DNA of 33,026 nucleotides from Nitrospira sp. CG24E (GTDB taxonomy: Bacteria; Nitrospirota; Nitrospiria; Nitrospirales; Nitrospiraceae). The notes under the pieces are model-generated. The model did not search any database. It worked only from the letters and a program-made list of their open reading frames with translations, and was not told the origin of the DNA. The DNA lies in contig NEWP02000024.1 of the NCBI GenBank assembly GCA_002869895.2, positions 10,259-43,284 on the forward strand, read 5' to 3'. Below, in pieces: positions 23,374 to 32,852 of this stretch. The position numbers and the translations under genes were made by a program. Numbering within the stretch: the first letter of the stretch is position 1; each line of letters begins with the position of its first letter.

Positions 23374-24455
23374 AAATAGTGCGTAGTTTCTCACGCGGCA
23401 TAGCGGACATGTTTCTCACGACAGAGGTTGGTGATCACCTGCGGTTGTTTCTGGCGCCGATACAAATGGCTGCGCACGATGGCCAGGAGTTCGGTCCGGT
23501 TGGTCGGACGGCTCTTGCCGGGCCCGTTGGTTTTGACGTCTTGATTCAACAATTCATCGGGGTTCAGTTCCGGGCAGTAGCCCGGCAGCCGAATTAGCCG
23601 CAGCCGCAACGAGTGCTTGGCGGCCACGCGCGTAGCGGCTCCGGATTTATGCACCGGATGCCCATCCACGATGAGATAGATCTTGCCGGCCACCTGTTTG
23701 AGCAGCCGCTGCAGGAACGTCACAAACACCGACGCCTTGAACGTGCCCTCAAACACCATGAAGGCGAGCGCCCCCTTGTTGGTGATGGCCGAGAGCATGT
23801 TGCATCCGAAGCGCTGGCCGGTGGCCCGCACGACCGGGGTTCGTCCGACCGGCGCATAGCTCGTCCCGGGTACATGGTCACTGCGTAGCCCCATCTCGTC
23901 CCCCCAGTAGATCGCCGCTTTGTCCCGCTTGGCCTGCCGGGCAAGCGCCGGGTATTCCTGCTTCAACCACCGCGTGATGGCCGCATCGTTCCGTTCGTAG
24001 GCACGCCGCACCGGCTTCTGCGGGCTCAAGCCCCACGCCCGGAGGTACCGCCCCACCGTCACGAGCGACACGGCCATCCCGTATTCCCGCGCAATCAGGC
24101 TCGCCACGGCGGCCCGCGTCCAGAGATAGAACGGCAGCTTCAGCTGATCGGGCAGCTTGCCCACGATCAGCGAGCGGATACGCGCCGCGCGCGTCCGGGT
24201 CAGGCGGCCCTCGCCCGGGCGCCGGCCCCGCCGCTTGAGCGTGAGCGCTCGCAGCCCGCCGTCCCGGTCGAGCCGCCTCCATGTGCTGACCGCTCGCAGG
24301 CTGGCCCCGAACGTGCGCGCGGCCTCAGTCTGCGGCATGCCGCCGCGCACCGCTCGCACCACCTGTCGACGCAACAGGTGCAGCGCCGACGGCTCCAAGG
24401 TCCTGGCATCCGTTCGTCTGGGCATGCCAGCATGATAGCACACTACGCACTATTT
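23374..24455 (-). mobile_element. IS630-family insertion sequence, complete
   Basis: A 1082-base element with 14-base perfect terminal inverted repeats: AAATAGTGCGTAGT at 23374-23387 and its complement at 24442-24455. One transposase fills the interior. Its GC content is clearly above that of both flanks, suggesting recent arrival. IS630 elements target TA; a TA is present at the right edge (24455-24456) but the left edge reads CCA, so the target duplication is imperfect. Confidence 0.9.
23391..24425 (-). CDS. IS630-family transposase
   Basis: A 344-residue DDE transposase, apparently intact. The N-terminal half holds a helix-turn-helix/winged-helix region (TEAARTFGASLRAVSTWRR; ASLIAREYGMAVSLVTVGRYL). 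The catalytic triad is D176 (YWGDEMG), D254 (LIVDGHP) and E291 (PELNPDE), with 36 residues between the last two. The ATG at 24425 (MPRRTD) is preferred over the upstream frame start at 24443, which lies in the terminal repeat region. Confidence 0.93.
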   Translation of the reverse strand: MPRRTDARTLEPSALHLLRRQVVRAVRGGMPQTEAARTFGASLRAVSTWRRLDRDGGLRALTLKRRGRRPGEGRLTRTRAARIRSLIVGKLPDQLKLPFYLWTRAAVASLIAREYGMAVSLVTVGRYLRAWGLSPQKPVRRAYERNDAAITRWLKQEYPALARQAKRDKAAIYWGDEMGLRSDHVPGTSYAPVGRTPVVRATGQRFGCNMLSAITNKGALAFMVFEGTFKASVFVTFLQRLLKQVAGKIYLIVDGHPVHKSGAATRVAAKHSLRLRLIRLPGYCPELNPDELLNQDVKTNGPGKSRPTNRTELLAIVRSHLYRRQKQPQVITNLCREKHVRYAA

Positions 24456-27125: not shown

Positions 27126-27311
27126 ATGTCCAAGAGTATTTCACGTAGCGTGCGTCATGCCGGATTGATCAGCGCATTGGTCATGGCTCCGTGTCTTGCC
27201 ATCACTGCAGGCGTGGTGTCAGCGGAGACCATCAAAGGCCAACTGGCGACCGCACCCAATGTTCCCCCTCCCATCACACGAACCCAGCCCGCCACCGTCC
27301 TGGTCACTTGA
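27126..27311 (+). pseudogene. N-terminal fragment resembling copper nitrite reductase NirK
   Basis: A 61-residue frame behind a strong AAAGGAGGCG. It has a complete signal peptide (residues 1-33, cleavage near VSA-ET) and then AETIKGQLATAPNVPPPITR and TQPATVLVT before a TGA. The PPPITRxQPAxVxV wording is what I recall from the mature N-terminus of NirK-type multicopper proteins just before the first cupredoxin domain. None of the copper ligands is left. The stop overlaps the end of an oppositely oriented gene, so a rearrangement probably removed the rest. Assignment is moderate. Confidence 0.5.
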
Positions 27312-27588
27312 CGGTTGTGTGGGGCTTGTAGAAGCTAAGAGGATCCAGGTACTTACTGAATGGGATCGGCTCCCAATACTGGCCGTACTGCCCTTTCCCC
27401 GCACCTCTGCCTGGATCCAGATAGCGCTTGGTCAACGCCTCATGCAACTCCTTGGGGCTGGCGGACCGATCAAGGTTCAGCGCCTGGTAGGTTTCCTGGG
27501 GGACGCTGGGAAAGTTTGCCTGAGCTGTTGCCGCAAGCAACACCCCGCAAACTACCAGGCCACATCTCAACCAGAATTTGTTGGTCAT
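27304..27588 (-). CDS. Small secreted protein, possibly a truncated longer protein
   Basis: A 94-residue frame with a clear signal peptide (LVVCGVLLAATAQA-NF) behind GGGAGGG. The mature part is YQALNLDRSASPKELHEALT, then YLDPGRGAGKGQYGQYWEPI and PFSKYLDPLSFYKPHTTVK. I do not recognise it for certain. The abrupt end at the junction with the NirK-like fragment suggests it may be the start of a larger periplasmic protein, perhaps a multiheme cytochrome, but no CxxCH is present. Its signal peptide matches that of the gene at 27885-28340 at 14 of the first 20 residues. Confidence 0.6.
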   Translation of the reverse strand: MTNKFWLRCGLVVCGVLLAATAQANFPSVPQETYQALNLDRSASPKELHEALTKRYLDPGRGAGKGQYGQYWEPIPFSKYLDPLSFYKPHTTVK

Positions 27589-27718
27589 ATTAACCCTCCC
27601 ACAGATGATAATTGCCCTATTTATAAGTCAGCCACTCTAATGATCGTTACGTGTGTATGTGCCAGTATTCACATCTACTATTGTTCATATTAGCGGTCAC
27701 TAATTAGCGTGACGCGCA

Positions 27719-27747
27719 TATATATCGCAGCATATATTCGATGTCAA
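27719..27747 (-). promoter_or_regulatory. Probable sigma-70 promoter of the small secreted gene
   Basis: On the minus strand TTGACA (27747-27742) is followed after 17 bases by TATATA (27724-27719); GATATA at 15 bases is an alternative. It lies about 130 bases upstream of the start at 27588, in an AT-rich 285-base spacer. The same sequence block recurs at 28414-28443. Confidence 0.55.
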
Positions 27748-27884: not shown

Positions 27885-28340
27885 CTAGGGCCTTTCACGA
27901 TCGATGAGGATAGTGACTCCATCCGCTCCAGGCATCACCGGCTGGCTTGTCCCCTCTAGATCTCCACTTTGCGGCATAGCTTGGCCGGACTTGGACAGGC
28001 GAGCCACAATTACCACCGTCCCCACATCAGAAAGCTTCCTGGACGGCATCATACTATTCGAGTCATCAAGCCGAAATGTGAAGGGCAGATCCTTTTTTGT
28101 CGCCCGAACAATGGCTACGGGCATTGGTGGACCATTCGCCTCGCGGGCAAACACAAATAATGTGTCCGTCGCGGATCCCTTCCCAGCCAGGCTCGGCGCT
28201 ATCGTGACCTTGCCGCTAATCGTAAGTGACTGTCCGACTAGCCGCACAGATGCAGGAGACTCCGCATATACTGGCACTGCCGCAGCGAACAACACACCGC
28301 AGACCAAGAGACCACATCCCAACCAAGATTTGTCGACCAT
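27885..28340 (-). CDS. Secreted stand-alone CcmI C-terminal domain (chimeric gene)
   Basis: A 151-residue exported protein: signal peptide at residues 1-26 (LLVCGVLFAAAVPVYA-ES), then one domain of about 115 residues. That domain is about 80 percent identical by eye to the C-terminus of the CcmI protein encoded 235 bases upstream; both contain TDTLFVFARE, GPPMPVAIVRATKKDLPFTF and LSKSGQAMPQSGDLEGTSQP, and both end IDRERP. The promoter and signal peptide instead match the gene at 27304-27588. GGGGAG lies 8 bases before the ATG. Likely role: periplasmic, possibly in apocytochrome handling, or a paralog with a new task. Confidence 0.85.
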   Translation of the reverse strand: MVDKSWLGCGLLVCGVLFAAAVPVYAESPASVRLVGQSLTISGKVTIAPSLAGKGSATDTLFVFAREANGPPMPVAIVRATKKDLPFTFRLDDSNSMMPSRKLSDVGTVVIVARLSKSGQAMPQSGDLEGTSQPVMPGADGVTILIDRERP

Positions 28341-28413
28341 GCGCGTACTCCCCGTTTGTTAAAACACAATATTATGGCTTTGAGTGAACTAATGCTTTAG
28401 CGGACAGCGCGCA

Positions 28414-28443
28414 TATATCTCAGCATATATCGGAAGATGTCAA
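28414..28443 (-). promoter_or_regulatory. Probable sigma-70 promoter of the CcmI-domain gene
   Basis: On the minus strand TTGACA (28443-28438) is followed after 18 bases by GATATA (28419-28414). The block GCGCATATAT...CAGCATATAT...GATGTCAA around it is shared with the promoter region at 27719-27747. Confidence 0.55.
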
Positions 28444-28574: not shown

Positions 28575-29876
28575 TTAAGGTCTTTCACGATCAATGACTA
28601 TGTTAATCCCATTTATCCCAGATTGTATCGGCTGACTCGTCCCCTCTAAATCTCCGCTCTGGGGCATGGCCTGGCCAGACTTCGAGAGACGGGCAACAAT
28701 CACCACTGGTCCTGCGCTGGAAAGTTTTCTAGAGGGCATCGGGCTCGTCGAGTCATCGAGTTGGAACGTAAAGGGCAGATCTTTCTTCGTCGCCCGTACG
28801 ATAGCCACAGGCATCGGTGGCCCACTCATCTCGCGAGCAAAGACAAACAATGTGTCTGTTGAGGACCCCTTGCTAGCCAGGCTCGGCGACATGGTTACCG
28901 TGCCTCTGATCGCGCGTGGCTGTCCAGCCTGCTTGGCCGGCTGGACCGGCGCTACCGGTTCTGTATATTCCGTATTCGCGGATACCATCCCTTGGCCGCC
29001 ACTAAGGTGGCTCTTAGCTTCTTCAATCGCAGCCACCAGTTGCTGCGTCATCTCCGGATCGACGTCCGCAGGAAGATTCGCACGAGCGAGCTCCCAGTCC
29101 TTGGCTGCACGCGCAAAGTTATTCCGATTGAACGCCACAGTCCCTGCCAGCATCAGCGCCTTCACATTGCGTGGATCAATCTTCAACGCCTGTTGAATCA
29201 AGGCCTCAGGCCTCCCTTCCAACTTGCGACCATGGAGCACGCCCATGGCATCTGCGTAATCGGCAAGTAGCTGGGCATCATCTGGAATCAGTTTTGTGGC
29301 ATTCTCGTAAGCCAGAGCGGCTTCGGCATGGCGCCCCATCCCCATGTATGAACGAGCGAGCAATGCCCACCCCGTACCATCATTCGGATTCTGCTCCATT
29401 TTCTGCTTGAGCCGTTCGATCAACGGGCCAAGTCCGTCAGCGAATGGACTACCATCTTCCCCTCCCGTTTGCGCAGACAACGAGGCAGCAGGCGGCTCTG
29501 TCATCGCGAGTGGATTCCCAATTTGCCAATAGAGTAACCCGCTGACTGTCGGGACGATGATGGCGATGGCGATGGCAACCGCCACCGGCCTGGCATGCAT
29601 TTGCTGCCAGGCTATTTTAGGTGTTGGTTCCGTCGTACCGGTCTCTTCCAACAAACGGCGTTCAAGCTCGCGTCGCGCTTGTTGATACAGTTCGTCGGTA
29701 AGCACGCCATTTGCGCGGTCCTGTCCTAATTCTGCGAACTGCTGTCGGTAAATAGACAGGGTCTTTTCTTCCTCTCCTTTTGCAATGACCGCCTTATGCC
29801 TTAGCAGGGGCCACAGCAGCAGACCGAGGACGAGAAGGGTCATCGTCGATGCGATAAACCAAAATAGAATGGTCAA
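28575..29876 (-). CDS. ccmI: Cytochrome c biogenesis protein CcmI (CycH)
   Basis: Chaperone that holds apocytochrome c for heme ligation. The 433-residue protein has two transmembrane helices (about 3-24 and 97-118) around a coiled-coil loop (YRQQFAELGQDRANGVLTDELYQQARRELERRLL), then TPR repeats (about 155-290), then a C-terminal periplasmic domain from about 325. The start is TTG, overlapping the ccmH stop as TTGA. Its last domain is duplicated as a free-standing secreted protein just downstream. Confidence 0.93.
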   Translation of the reverse strand: MTILFWFIASTMTLLVLGLLLWPLLRHKAVIAKGEEEKTLSIYRQQFAELGQDRANGVLTDELYQQARRELERRLLEETGTTEPTPKIAWQQMHARPVAVAIAIAIIVPTVSGLLYWQIGNPLAMTEPPAASLSAQTGGEDGSPFADGLGPLIERLKQKMEQNPNDGTGWALLARSYMGMGRHAEAALAYENATKLIPDDAQLLADYADAMGVLHGRKLEGRPEALIQQALKIDPRNVKALMLAGTVAFNRNNFARAAKDWELARANLPADVDPEMTQQLVAAIEEAKSHLSGGQGMVSANTEYTEPVAPVQPAKQAGQPRAIRGTVTMSPSLASKGSSTDTLFVFAREMSGPPMPVAIVRATKKDLPFTFQLDDSTSPMPSRKLSSAGPVVIVARLSKSGQAMPQSGDLEGTSQPIQSGINGINIVIDRERP

Positions 29877-30340
29877 GGGCGATTCGCTCCTTCGGAGAGC
29901 ATTTGTGCAACACGGTTATGCTCTGCTTCCGACAATGACACCTCGATCAACTTCTTCTGCCTCCTGCGTAGCGCAAATACCAATGCCGTCGAGCCTCCAA
30001 TCAGCAGGAGGAAGGGTCCCACCCAGAGTAAGGTGGTTGAGGTCTTGAGAGGGGGACGATATAACACGAAATCTCCATATCGTGTGACGAGGAAATCAAT
30101 GATCTCCTTGTCGCTCATATCTTTGACGATCATTTCACGGACTTCTCGGCGCAGGTCTTCGGCCAATGGCGCGTTCGAATCAGCCAACGTCTGGTTCTGA
30201 CAAACCAGGCAGCGAAGCTCTACAGCGAGCGCTTTTAACCGGGCTTCAACCTGAGGGTTCTCAGCGAGCGGGATGGCTTCATAGGCCGCCGCAGCAAGAC
30301 CCGGAAGAAGAAGAATGATTACTAAGTAGAACCACCTCAT
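29873..30340 (-). CDS. ccmH: Cytochrome c biogenesis protein CcmH (thiol oxidoreductase)
   Basis: Reduces apocytochrome CxxCH cysteines in system I. The 155-residue protein has a signal peptide, the LRCLVCQNQTLADSNAPLA motif with C44 and C47, the helical region RREVREMIVKDMSDKEIIDFLVTRYGDFVLY, and a transmembrane helix at about 104-124. It overlaps the ccmG stop (ATGA) and the ccmI start. It corresponds to the N-terminal part of E. coli CcmH, with CcmI separate. Confidence 0.96.
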   Translation of the reverse strand: MRWFYLVIILLLPGLAAAAYEAIPLAENPQVEARLKALAVELRCLVCQNQTLADSNAPLAEDLRREVREMIVKDMSDKEIIDFLVTRYGDFVLYRPPLKTSTTLLWVGPFLLLIGGSTALVFALRRRQKKLIEVSLSEAEHNRVAQMLSEGANRP

Positions 30341-30864
30341 TGATTCTGCAGCTCCCTGATCAGCGGCAAAATTTTCGTTTGCAAAATATCCTCGCGCAAC
30401 GGACCAATTTGCTTATAACGAATAACCCCCGCCTTATCGATTACATAGGTTTCCGGTACGCCATAGACACCATAATTAATGCCGGCACGCCCCGACTCAT
30501 CCACCGCGACGATCGGATAGGGATTACCCCACTCTTTCAACCAGGCCAGCGCCTCTTCCCTTCGATCCTTATAGTCCATGCCGTAGATAGGCACGACGCC
30601 TGATTGTGCAAGCTGGATGAGGACAGGATGCTCTGTCTTACAACCACCACACCAGGAAGCCCAGAAATTGAGCAGCCACACCTGGCCCTTCAAATCGTTC
30701 GTCGACAGCACTTTCTGCTGATCGTGGAGTTGCGGAAGCGAGAATTCAGGCGCCGGCTTTCCCACCAAGGGCGACGGCAATTCACGCGGGTTGAGCGTCA
30801 GGCCGATACCAAGAAAAACGACCACGACGACAAAGATCCCGAGCGGGATGAGGAACCGATTCAT
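30337..30864 (-). CDS. ccmG: Thiol:disulfide interchange protein CcmG/DsbE
   Basis: Membrane-anchored periplasmic thioredoxin that keeps CcmH and apocytochrome reduced. The 175-residue protein has an N-terminal anchor (about 5-24), the active site WASWCGGCKTEHP (C72, C75) and the cis-proline loop GVPETYVID. WCGGC differs from the more usual WCxxC variants such as WCPTC, which may tune its redox potential. It overlaps ccmF as ATGA. Confidence 0.95.
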   Translation of the reverse strand: MNRFLIPLGIFVVVVVFLGIGLTLNPRELPSPLVGKPAPEFSLPQLHDQQKVLSTNDLKGQVWLLNFWASWCGGCKTEHPVLIQLAQSGVVPIYGMDYKDRREEALAWLKEWGNPYPIVAVDESGRAGINYGVYGVPETYVIDKAGVIRYKQIGPLREDILQTKILPLIRELQNQ

Positions 30865-32852
30865 GAGACTGTCTGCCGAGCCATCTGTGTCGTGGCTGGC
30901 ACTTCGACATCTTTACGCCGCCACGCAAGCCGATACCGGCGATCGCTGATAGCCAAGACACCGCCCATCGCCATGACTAAACATCCACCCCAAATCCAAT
31001 CGATAAAGGGCTTGTGGTAGAGCCGCACACTCCAGGCTCCATCGTCGAGTGGCTCACCCAATGACACATAGAGATCGCGCAACAGCCCGGGAGAAATCGC
31101 AGCTTCGGTCATGGTCTGATTCTGCACAGTATATCGTCGTTTTTCCGGATACATCACCGTCACATCATGCCCGTCCTGGCTCACGTGAATCGTTCCACGC
31201 GCTGCGATATAGTTTGGTCCCTTGTACTGTTGAGTTCCGTCAAACCGGAAGGTATAGCCGCCAAGCGTGGCCGTCTGTCCGACATTCATCCGTACGTCCT
31301 GCTCAACTTCAAAGCCCTTCACCATGGTCACACCTGTGATAAACAGGGCGAGTCCAAAGTGGGCCACAACCATTCCCCAATATGATCGAGGCATCGAGGC
31401 CAGTCGGCCAAAGAGACTGTTTCCATCCGTATGGGCAAGGCGTTCACGCAAGTCCGTAGCGATCGTCGTCGCAATCCAGATAGCCAACAAGAGACCCAGA
31501 CTGACAAGGGGGGACCAATGGCCCAAGACAATCGGTAACACCAGAGCCGTTGTAACACTCACCCCGAATGCCCAACGCAGGCGCATGGCTAATTCCGGCA
31601 GGCTGGCTTTTTTCCACTGGGCCAGAGGGCCGATCCCCATCAAAAAGATAGCGGGTGTCATCAGCGGGACAAAGACGGTGTCAAAATAGGGTGGCCCGAC
31701 AGAAATTTTCCCGAGGTCCAACGCGTCCAAGAATAGAGGATACAGGGTGCCCAACAGCACCGACCCCAAGGCCGCGACCAGTAACACATTATTCGCCAGC
31801 AGCATCCCCTCGCGCGAGATGATGGAGAAACCACCGCCCAGTCCCACGCGCGGCGCGCGCCACGCGTACAACATCAGTGAGCCTCCGGTCACCACAGCCA
31901 GGAACACCAGGATAAACAGACCACGCTTTGGGTCAGTGGCAAACGCATGCACTGAGGTCAACACGCCAGAGCGGACCAAGAAGGTTCCAAGCAGGCTAAG
32001 GGAAAACGCCAAAATGGCGAGCAACACACTCCAGGCTTTAAAGCTGCCCCGTTTATCCGTGACCGCCAACGAGTGAATCAACGCGGTTCCAGCCAACCAA
32101 GGCATGAATGAGGCATTTTCAACCGGATCCCAGAACCACCACCCGCCCCAACCCAGTTCGTAATAGGCCCAGCCGCTCCCCATCGCGACGCCAATAGTCA
32201 GAAAACACCACGCAACCGTAGTCCAGGGACGTGACCAACGTGCCCAGGCCGCATCCAGTGTTCCCCCGAAAAGTGCCGCGATCGCAAAAGCAAAGGCGAC
32301 GGAGAATCCCACGTAACCCATGTAGAGCATCGGTGGATGTATGACCATCCCAGGATCCTGCAACAGAGGATTGAGATCTCGCCCATCGAATGCAGCCGGG
32401 ATCAACCGCTCGAATGGATTGGAGACCGTCAGCATGAATAGGAGAAATCCCATGCTGACCAAACCCATCACGCCAAGAATACGGGCACGCATCGCTTCGG
32501 GCAGATGGGCTGACAGGAACGAGACCGCAACCATCCATATCGTGAGAATAAATACCCAGAGAAGTAACGATCCCTCATGGGCGCCCCAAATGGCTGCGAG
32601 ACGATAATGAAGGGGGAGCTGAGAATTCGACGTGGCCGCGACATAGAGCACAGAAAAATCCTTGGCCGCGAAGGCATATCCCAGACAACAAAATGCCAGC
32701 AGGACCAAGAGAAATTGCCCGCGCGCGGCCGGTTTTGCTACGGACATGAGCGCGGAGTTTCCAACCGCGGCACCGTAGATAGGAAGACTCCCCTGCACCA
32801 CCGCCACACAAAGCGCGAGAATCAAAGCAAAATGACCGATCTCTGGAATCAT
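30861..32852 (-). CDS. ccmF: Heme lyase CcmF
   Basis: Large inner-membrane protein of system I that transfers heme from CcmE to apocytochrome. The 663 residues include many transmembrane spans, the tryptophan-rich WWD domain (WGGWWFWDPVENASFMPWL), conserved histidines such as HPPMLYMGYVG and LIHSLAVTDKRG, and a periplasmic domain near 530-615 with YPEKRRYTVQNQTMTE. AGGAGCC precedes the ATG, and the ccmE stop lies within that ribosome binding site. Confidence 0.97.
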   Translation of the reverse strand: MIPEIGHFALILALCVAVVQGSLPIYGAAVGNSALMSVAKPAARGQFLLVLLAFCCLGYAFAAKDFSVLYVAATSNSQLPLHYRLAAIWGAHEGSLLLWVFILTIWMVAVSFLSAHLPEAMRARILGVMGLVSMGFLLFMLTVSNPFERLIPAAFDGRDLNPLLQDPGMVIHPPMLYMGYVGFSVAFAFAIAALFGGTLDAAWARWSRPWTTVAWCFLTIGVAMGSGWAYYELGWGGWWFWDPVENASFMPWLAGTALIHSLAVTDKRGSFKAWSVLLAILAFSLSLLGTFLVRSGVLTSVHAFATDPKRGLFILVFLAVVTGGSLMLYAWRAPRVGLGGGFSIISREGMLLANNVLLVAALGSVLLGTLYPLFLDALDLGKISVGPPYFDTVFVPLMTPAIFLMGIGPLAQWKKASLPELAMRLRWAFGVSVTTALVLPIVLGHWSPLVSLGLLLAIWIATTIATDLRERLAHTDGNSLFGRLASMPRSYWGMVVAHFGLALFITGVTMVKGFEVEQDVRMNVGQTATLGGYTFRFDGTQQYKGPNYIAARGTIHVSQDGHDVTVMYPEKRRYTVQNQTMTEAAISPGLLRDLYVSLGEPLDDGAWSVRLYHKPFIDWIWGGCLVMAMGGVLAISDRRYRLAWRRKDVEVPATTQMARQTVS

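Follow-up and report, generated by a model that had tools for sequence, protein, structure and literature searches.

The window, by which we mean the whole stretch of 33,026 nucleotides analysed from Nitrospira sp. CG24E, carries a haem-ligation cluster, and between its ccmI gene and a short neighbouring gene on the same strand lies a small gene for a free Ig_CycH domain (Table 1).

Table 1. Features at the free Ig_CycH locus, with positions in the window
Feature	Position	Strand	Remarks
nirK remnant, first 61 codons	27126..27308	+	abuts haoA remnant tail to tail; 72% identical to the intact nirK of L130, in the same place
haoA remnant (by sequence), first 94 codons of hydroxylamine dehydrogenase	27304..27588	-	orthologues ~570 aa with 8 CxxCH
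Promoter-like element upstream of haoA (parent copy)	27712..27747	-	same element as that of the free gene; kept in 14/14 haoA genes
Free Ig_CycH gene, 151 aa	27885..28340	-	haoA-type signal peptide, CcmI linker and Ig-like domain; 14 further genomes of the genus have orthologues
Ig_CycH domain, residues 42-147	27900..28217	-	Pfam PF23892, 1.6e-36; AF2 model
Fusion zone, ~codons 20-26, haoA-like/CcmI-like border	28263..28283	-	free, HaoA and CcmI linker sequences compared in many genomes
Signal peptide, codons 1-26 (MVDKSWLGCGLLVCGVLFAAAVPVYA)	28263..28340	-	matches haoA codons 1-24; cleavage site by eye
Promoter-like element of the free gene, TTGACAT-N-GATATATGCGCG	28408..28443	-	kept in 15/15 free genes
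ccmI: TPR and one C-terminal Ig_CycH domain (~28590-28910)	28575..29876	-	source family of the free domain; Pfam
ccmH, ccmG, ccmF, haem-ligation cluster	29873..32852	-	Pfam

The free gene and its neighbour

The free protein is a member of the Ig_CycH family, as its Pfam match scores 124.8 bits against a curated cut-off of 27 and spans profile positions 2-108 of 108, and the initial annotation had correctly read the gene as a signal peptide followed by a CcmI C-terminal domain. In an AlphaFold2 model, pLDDT is mostly >90 over residues ~41-151, with seven strands, and the first 36 residues are unordered. Judged by eye, the N-terminus shows an n-region, an h-region and an AxA-like c-region. Although the C-terminal Ig-like domain, a trait of CcmI/CycH, is present (Pfam, model), membrane helices such as those of the CcmI N-terminus are absent, a haoA-like signal peptide alone standing in their place, and Pfam revealed no TPR region (PF23914 or TPR), Ig_CycH being the sole family in the free protein whereas CcmI has TPR families; lacking membrane helices and TPRs, the free protein is not a CcmI. 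Over residues 23-151 the free protein shares 75% identity with the Ig domain of the CcmI next door, a little below the "about 80 percent" first estimated; the genome encodes another CcmI elsewhere, and with its Ig domain identity is 68%. A search of solved structures by sequence found no relative of the free protein. A fold search with residues 37-151 placed secretin pilotins closest (AspS, a T2SS pilotin; 5wec, Z 9.2; 2yjl, Z 8.1), at ~15% identity and with only middling Z below 5wec, and the modelled likeness to pilotins is a weak lead only.

Pfam gave no match for the 94-aa neighbouring gene alone. In relatives, a protein of ~570 aa begins with this N-terminus and contains eight CxxCH motifs and the multihaem domain PF13447 (2e-140), and downstream lie genes at the haoB, cycA and cycB positions, the last two with four CxxCH each; by this comparison of sequences, the neighbour is a truncated haoA of a comammox HAO cluster. 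Although PF13447 had no match anywhere in the window's genome, part of an ammonia-monooxygenase gene at the edge of a contig indicates that the genome is that of a comammox Nitrospira. The presence of cytochrome c biogenesis genes beside amo and hao in comammox genomes is already known (PMC6311188; PMC8115096).

The nirK (+) and haoA (-) remnants meet near 27304-27312, and in intact relatives two nirK genes, an orf, cycB, cycA, haoB and the remaining haoA lie between the ends of this junction, which reflects either a genuine deletion that removed the HAO cluster or a chimeric assembly. The window also contains, ~3 kb from the junction, an ORF of 350 aa (23391-24443, -) that by eye is IS630-type transposase-like.

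A 5' end shared with haoA

Alignment of the 5' end of the free gene with that of the truncated haoA gave a DNA score of 47, as against a shuffle maximum of 32. When the 94-aa neighbour was used as a query against whole genomes, the only matches besides haoA were to the N-terminus of the free protein, in 9 genomes. In 12 of 14 genomes the match between the free and haoA signal peptides was better, in both DNA and protein, than that of any of 136 unrelated signal-peptide-like starts, the exceptions being G007 and G028.

Upstream, the two genes share a promoter-like element (TTGACAT...GATAYATGYGCG), present at 29/29 sites (15 free genes and the 14 haoA genes with readable upstream DNA). It is laid out as TTGACA(T), 15 to 18 nt, GATAYA and TGYGCG, lies at about -90 to -104 of the free gene and about -131 to -160 of haoA, and is followed in both by a GGAG ribosome site and then the signal peptide. 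A strict pattern for the element (TTGACATN{7,14}GMGATAYA), run over 25 whole genomes, yielded 15 matches, 14 of them upstream of haoA or the free gene and one elsewhere, with zero matches in those of the 25 genomes without the locus. No general regulon with this element came to light, the strict pattern showing no other targets in the 25 genomes. A generic promoter scan did not report the element because its -10-like part departs from TATAAT and its spacing varies. We infer from these sequence features that the element acts as a promoter.

Further downstream, the fusion zone is HaoA-like on one side (...CGVLLA) and resembles the CcmI linker on the other (Y[AT]EPxAPxxxxGQ), most clearly in G005, G006 and G014. 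The chimeric origin proposed by the initial annotation, from the 5' end of the neighbour and the C-terminal domain of CcmI, is right, and the case is stronger than was claimed. The upstream match on which it drew is a conserved element found in every orthologue, and the signal-peptide match withstood comparison with unrelated signal-peptide-like starts in 12 of 14 genomes. What had gone unnoticed was the identity of the 5'-end donor as a truncated haoA and the conservation of the free gene in relatives. Convergence or chance could in principle produce similar signal peptides and AT-rich upstream DNA, leaving an ordinary exported domain unlinked to haoA, and in two genomes, G007 and G028, a few controls do equal or exceed the signal-peptide match taken alone; however, element, spacer and signal peptide match jointly, in the same order and with genome-wide specificity, and this explanation, to which we give next to no chance, is already refuted for most genomes.

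Distribution, phylogeny and origin

Proteins joining a signal peptide to the CcmI C-terminal domain, which the initial annotation had thought worth seeking in Nitrospira, were found in 15 of the 32 genomes of the genus, the gene usually lying between ccmI and haoA. Twelve of the 32 have a HAO match and all 12 carry the free gene; the three carriers without one are the window's genome (haoA truncated), G017, in which the contig ends inside haoA, and G026, in which a deletion spans from inside the free gene to inside cycB. Neither HAO nor the free gene was found in the other 17. The hypergeometric probability of this co-occurrence would be ~2e-6 if the genomes were independent, and since they are not, the figure is a descriptive one. 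Named carriers include Nitrospira sp. RCB ("cladeB" in its record), CG24A, RSF3, RSF6, RSF11 and palsa_1310.

Three other HAO-bearing genomes, LK70, RCA and UBA2082, are without the free gene, indicating that it is not needed for HAO generally. A HAO region with two nirK genes is reported to be common to clades A2 and B via horizontal transfer and absent from A1 (PMC9714041). G019 and G005 have two intact nirK genes close to hao and the LK70 contig does not, so the free gene may be part of the HAO island exchanged between A2 and B. Its absence from at least three HAO-bearing genomes may in turn help to follow how the HAO region passed between comammox clades, an exchange that is already known (PMC9714041).

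Two further genomes show the locus in a reduced state. G026 (Nitrospira sp. CG24C; L067 and L211) is another genome in which the HAO cluster is deleted: there the free gene runs into cycB in the wrong frame, a nirK 3' end is attached to the cytochrome c gene, and ~15 kb away an AMO-family gene is intact. In Baikal-deep-G158 (L130, 4396-5832), a haoA-type promoter element after ccmI runs into an oppositely oriented nirK; with no haoA near this ccmI and no strong HAO match in the genome, L130 has the look of what is left of the same locus after hao was lost.

In FastTree nucleotide trees of the full alignments, the free copies formed one clade (support 0.979 and 0.939), which sits beside or within the Ig domains of the hao-locus CcmI. 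Trees from codon positions 1+2 and from protein also gave one free clade, with lower support (0.78 and 0.50, respectively). When the distant anchored Ig_CycH proteins served as outgroup, the root of the protein tree fell within the free clade, across a long branch, and rerooting on betaproteobacterial CcmI resolved this misplacement, the support from the protein alignment being low (0.50). The window's CcmI domain groups with the CcmI domains of sister genomes and not with its own free copy. As the free form is one clade in 15 genomes, nested among CcmI domains of the same locus, the event is ancient. The supposition that the gene derived from the CcmI of the window's own genome therefore fails, and the stand-alone form turned out to be in part what had been named as evidence against a local fusion, namely a widespread form with its own lineage (15 genomes, one clade). 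A recent private fusion in the window's genome was rejected too, since 14 further genomes carry orthologues.

Within the free clade dN/dS is ~0.10, compared to 0.07 for the CcmI domains of the locus, and the window's free gene differs from its nearest relative by 3 non-synonymous and 25 synonymous changes. Such a substitution pattern indicates that the free gene is functional, under purifying selection, and no fresh by-product. That the gene is a by-product of duplication with little or no function, kept similar by recombination with the adjacent CcmI domains, is a disfavoured and very improbable reading. Tandem repeats can be homogenised, and Ig copies inside one CcmI do sometimes group by genome (G005, G023, G030); the free copies, however, group together and not with the CcmI of their own genome, purifying selection on them is strong, promoter, ribosome site and signal peptide are all retained in 15 genomes, and no frameshift or loss was seen among 12 HAO-positive close relatives.

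The spacer between ccmI and the free gene and that between the free gene and haoA proved to be homologous beyond the promoter in several genomes. In G014 they match from the first base after both stop codons over 126 nt (score 34.5; shuffle maximum 17), in G006 the score is 46.5 (shuffle maximum 16.5), and in G030 nt 6-59 of both match (33 vs 15.5). Similarity was well above shuffles in these three and in G000, G023 and G017, and near or at chance in G019, G025, G027 and G028. Homologous spacers allow the gene to be explained by a single tandem duplication, which would have occurred once, in the ancestor of part of comammox Nitrospira. The duplicated segment would have run from the ccmI Ig domain through the spacer and the haoA promoter and closed with the haoA signal peptide. 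An additional CcmI Ig domain would thereby have come to stand in frame behind an additional copy of the haoA promoter and signal peptide, exactly the arrangement observed. LK70, a comammox genome, has haoA directly after ccmI and no free gene anywhere; UBA2082, also without the free gene, has the same adjacency by coordinates, and this ccmI-haoA order is the expected precursor state. The initial annotation had the neighbour's promoter fused on; its reading is revised in age, donor and mechanism, as the promoter donor is haoA and the simplest route is one tandem duplication and not promoter capture. The locus offers a clean example of gene birth, in which one tandem duplication would yield promoter, signal peptide and domain together and the precursor order is visible in relatives.

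Multiplication of Ig_CycH was also seen inside CcmI: L057, L060, L062, L063 and L054 have a CcmI with two or three tandem Ig_CycH domains (frames of 550-700 aa), and in these genomes this occurs solely in the hao-locus ccmI. A second, solitary ccmI is present in L053 (G000:C56), L068 and L070, with no ccmF, ccmG or ccmH detected within the ~10-13 kb examined.

Possible role in HAO maturation and comparison with known systems

Each HAO subunit carries eight haems, with a cross-linked haem P460, and maturation of the enzyme is poorly known; comammox bacteria, moreover, are hard to manipulate. A conserved small gene tied to haoA by promoter and position is a concrete candidate for a part in HAO maturation. 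Searches of the openly licensed literature on comammox with CcmI or CycH turned up no account of the free gene, which is real, conserved, chimeric and apparently undescribed so far.

We consider it somewhat probable that one ancient tandem duplication created a soluble copy of the CcmI Ig domain that assists apo-HAO at the CcmFGHI lyase. The free protein would be exported to the periplasm when haoA is transcribed and would serve there as a soluble extra Ig copy, helping the lyase to receive, hold or fold the eight-haem apo-HAO and aiding haem attachment to HAO or its folding; it would be expected to bind apo-HAO or CcmFHI and to affect HAO maturation. Our best guess is accordingly close to one of the roles first suggested, a soluble partner in cytochrome c maturation, with HAO now as the specific client. 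In the window's own genome, where haoA is broken, this client may be absent. The presence of 1-3 Ig copies in the hao-locus CcmI, together with a free copy bearing the haoA element, suggests selection on the dose of the domain around HAO. A real possibility, though short of probable, is that the free protein is a dedicated HAO maturation factor, a CcmI Ig domain taken off the lyase and put under the HAO promoter, matching assembly capacity to synthesis. We found no established function for the CcmI Ig domain itself in the literature, and such a factor, if real, would give it its first assignable one. Unfolded apocytochromes are bound by the TPRs of CcmI, which acts together with CcmF and CcmH (PMC3884852; PMC12285233); it speaks against assistance to apo-HAO that the free protein is without TPRs, the known apocytochrome contacts (PMC3884852).

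A protein of the same origin might instead act on the lyase, competing with or replacing the CcmI Ig domain as a dosage or decoy regulator of CcmFHI, with an effect on all c-type cytochromes made during ammonia oxidation. Free proteins are 75-81% identical to the tethered Ig domain of the hao-locus CcmI, and the repeated change of Ig number in that CcmI, from 1 to 3, points to selection on Ig dosage in the lyase; but promoter and gene position tie the free gene to haoA and not to ccm or other cytochromes, making a lyase regulator unlikely. Quite improbable is a new periplasmic role at the HAO complex unrelated to haem attachment, in P460 cross-linking, trimer assembly or cytochrome docking. 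The gene has its own signal peptide and, by sequence, HAO's promoter, and the fold resembles partner-binding pilotins (a weak lead, as above), yet the domain is still very near the CcmI form and under similar constraint, which argues against a wholly new partner, and some HAO-bearing genomes do without the gene.

Assistance to apo-HAO, the reading we prefer, has parallels in known systems. CcmI/CycH, the System I apocytochrome chaperone, belongs to the same PF23892 family, and the free gene adjoins ccmFGHI; unlike CcmI, the free protein has neither transmembrane helices nor TPRs and has its own signal peptide and a haoA promoter-like element. Small Ig_CycH proteins of ~145 aa from Nitrospira without HAO (L084, L085, L090; for L085, Pfam 5.7e-16) are likewise stand-alone and are 36-44% identical to it, but they have an N-terminal anchor instead of a haoA-type signal peptide, come without haoA and form a separate, much more distant lineage in the tree. 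Anchored proteins of this kind (L084-L097) occur in HAO-less Nitrospira, and none was matched in HAO-bearing carriers of the free gene, a complementary distribution.

In Shewanella, SirG works with CcmI for the sulfite reductase SirA (PMC6976685). Going by its description, SirG similarly accompanies a specialised multihaem enzyme as a further protein of the apocytochrome-chaperone type, in addition to the general CcmI; it differs in that the haem site of its client is unusual, the eight CxxCH motifs of HAO here being ordinary, and in that the free protein is an Ig domain. NrfG, of NrfEFG, is a paralogue of CcmI that serves a single multihaem enzyme, the nitrite reductase NrfA (PMC12285233; PMC3884852), and its gene adjoins that of the enzyme, although it binds NrfA through TPRs, of which the free protein has none. 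By analogy with these systems, the free protein is most likely a soluble HAO helper comparable to SirG or NrfG.
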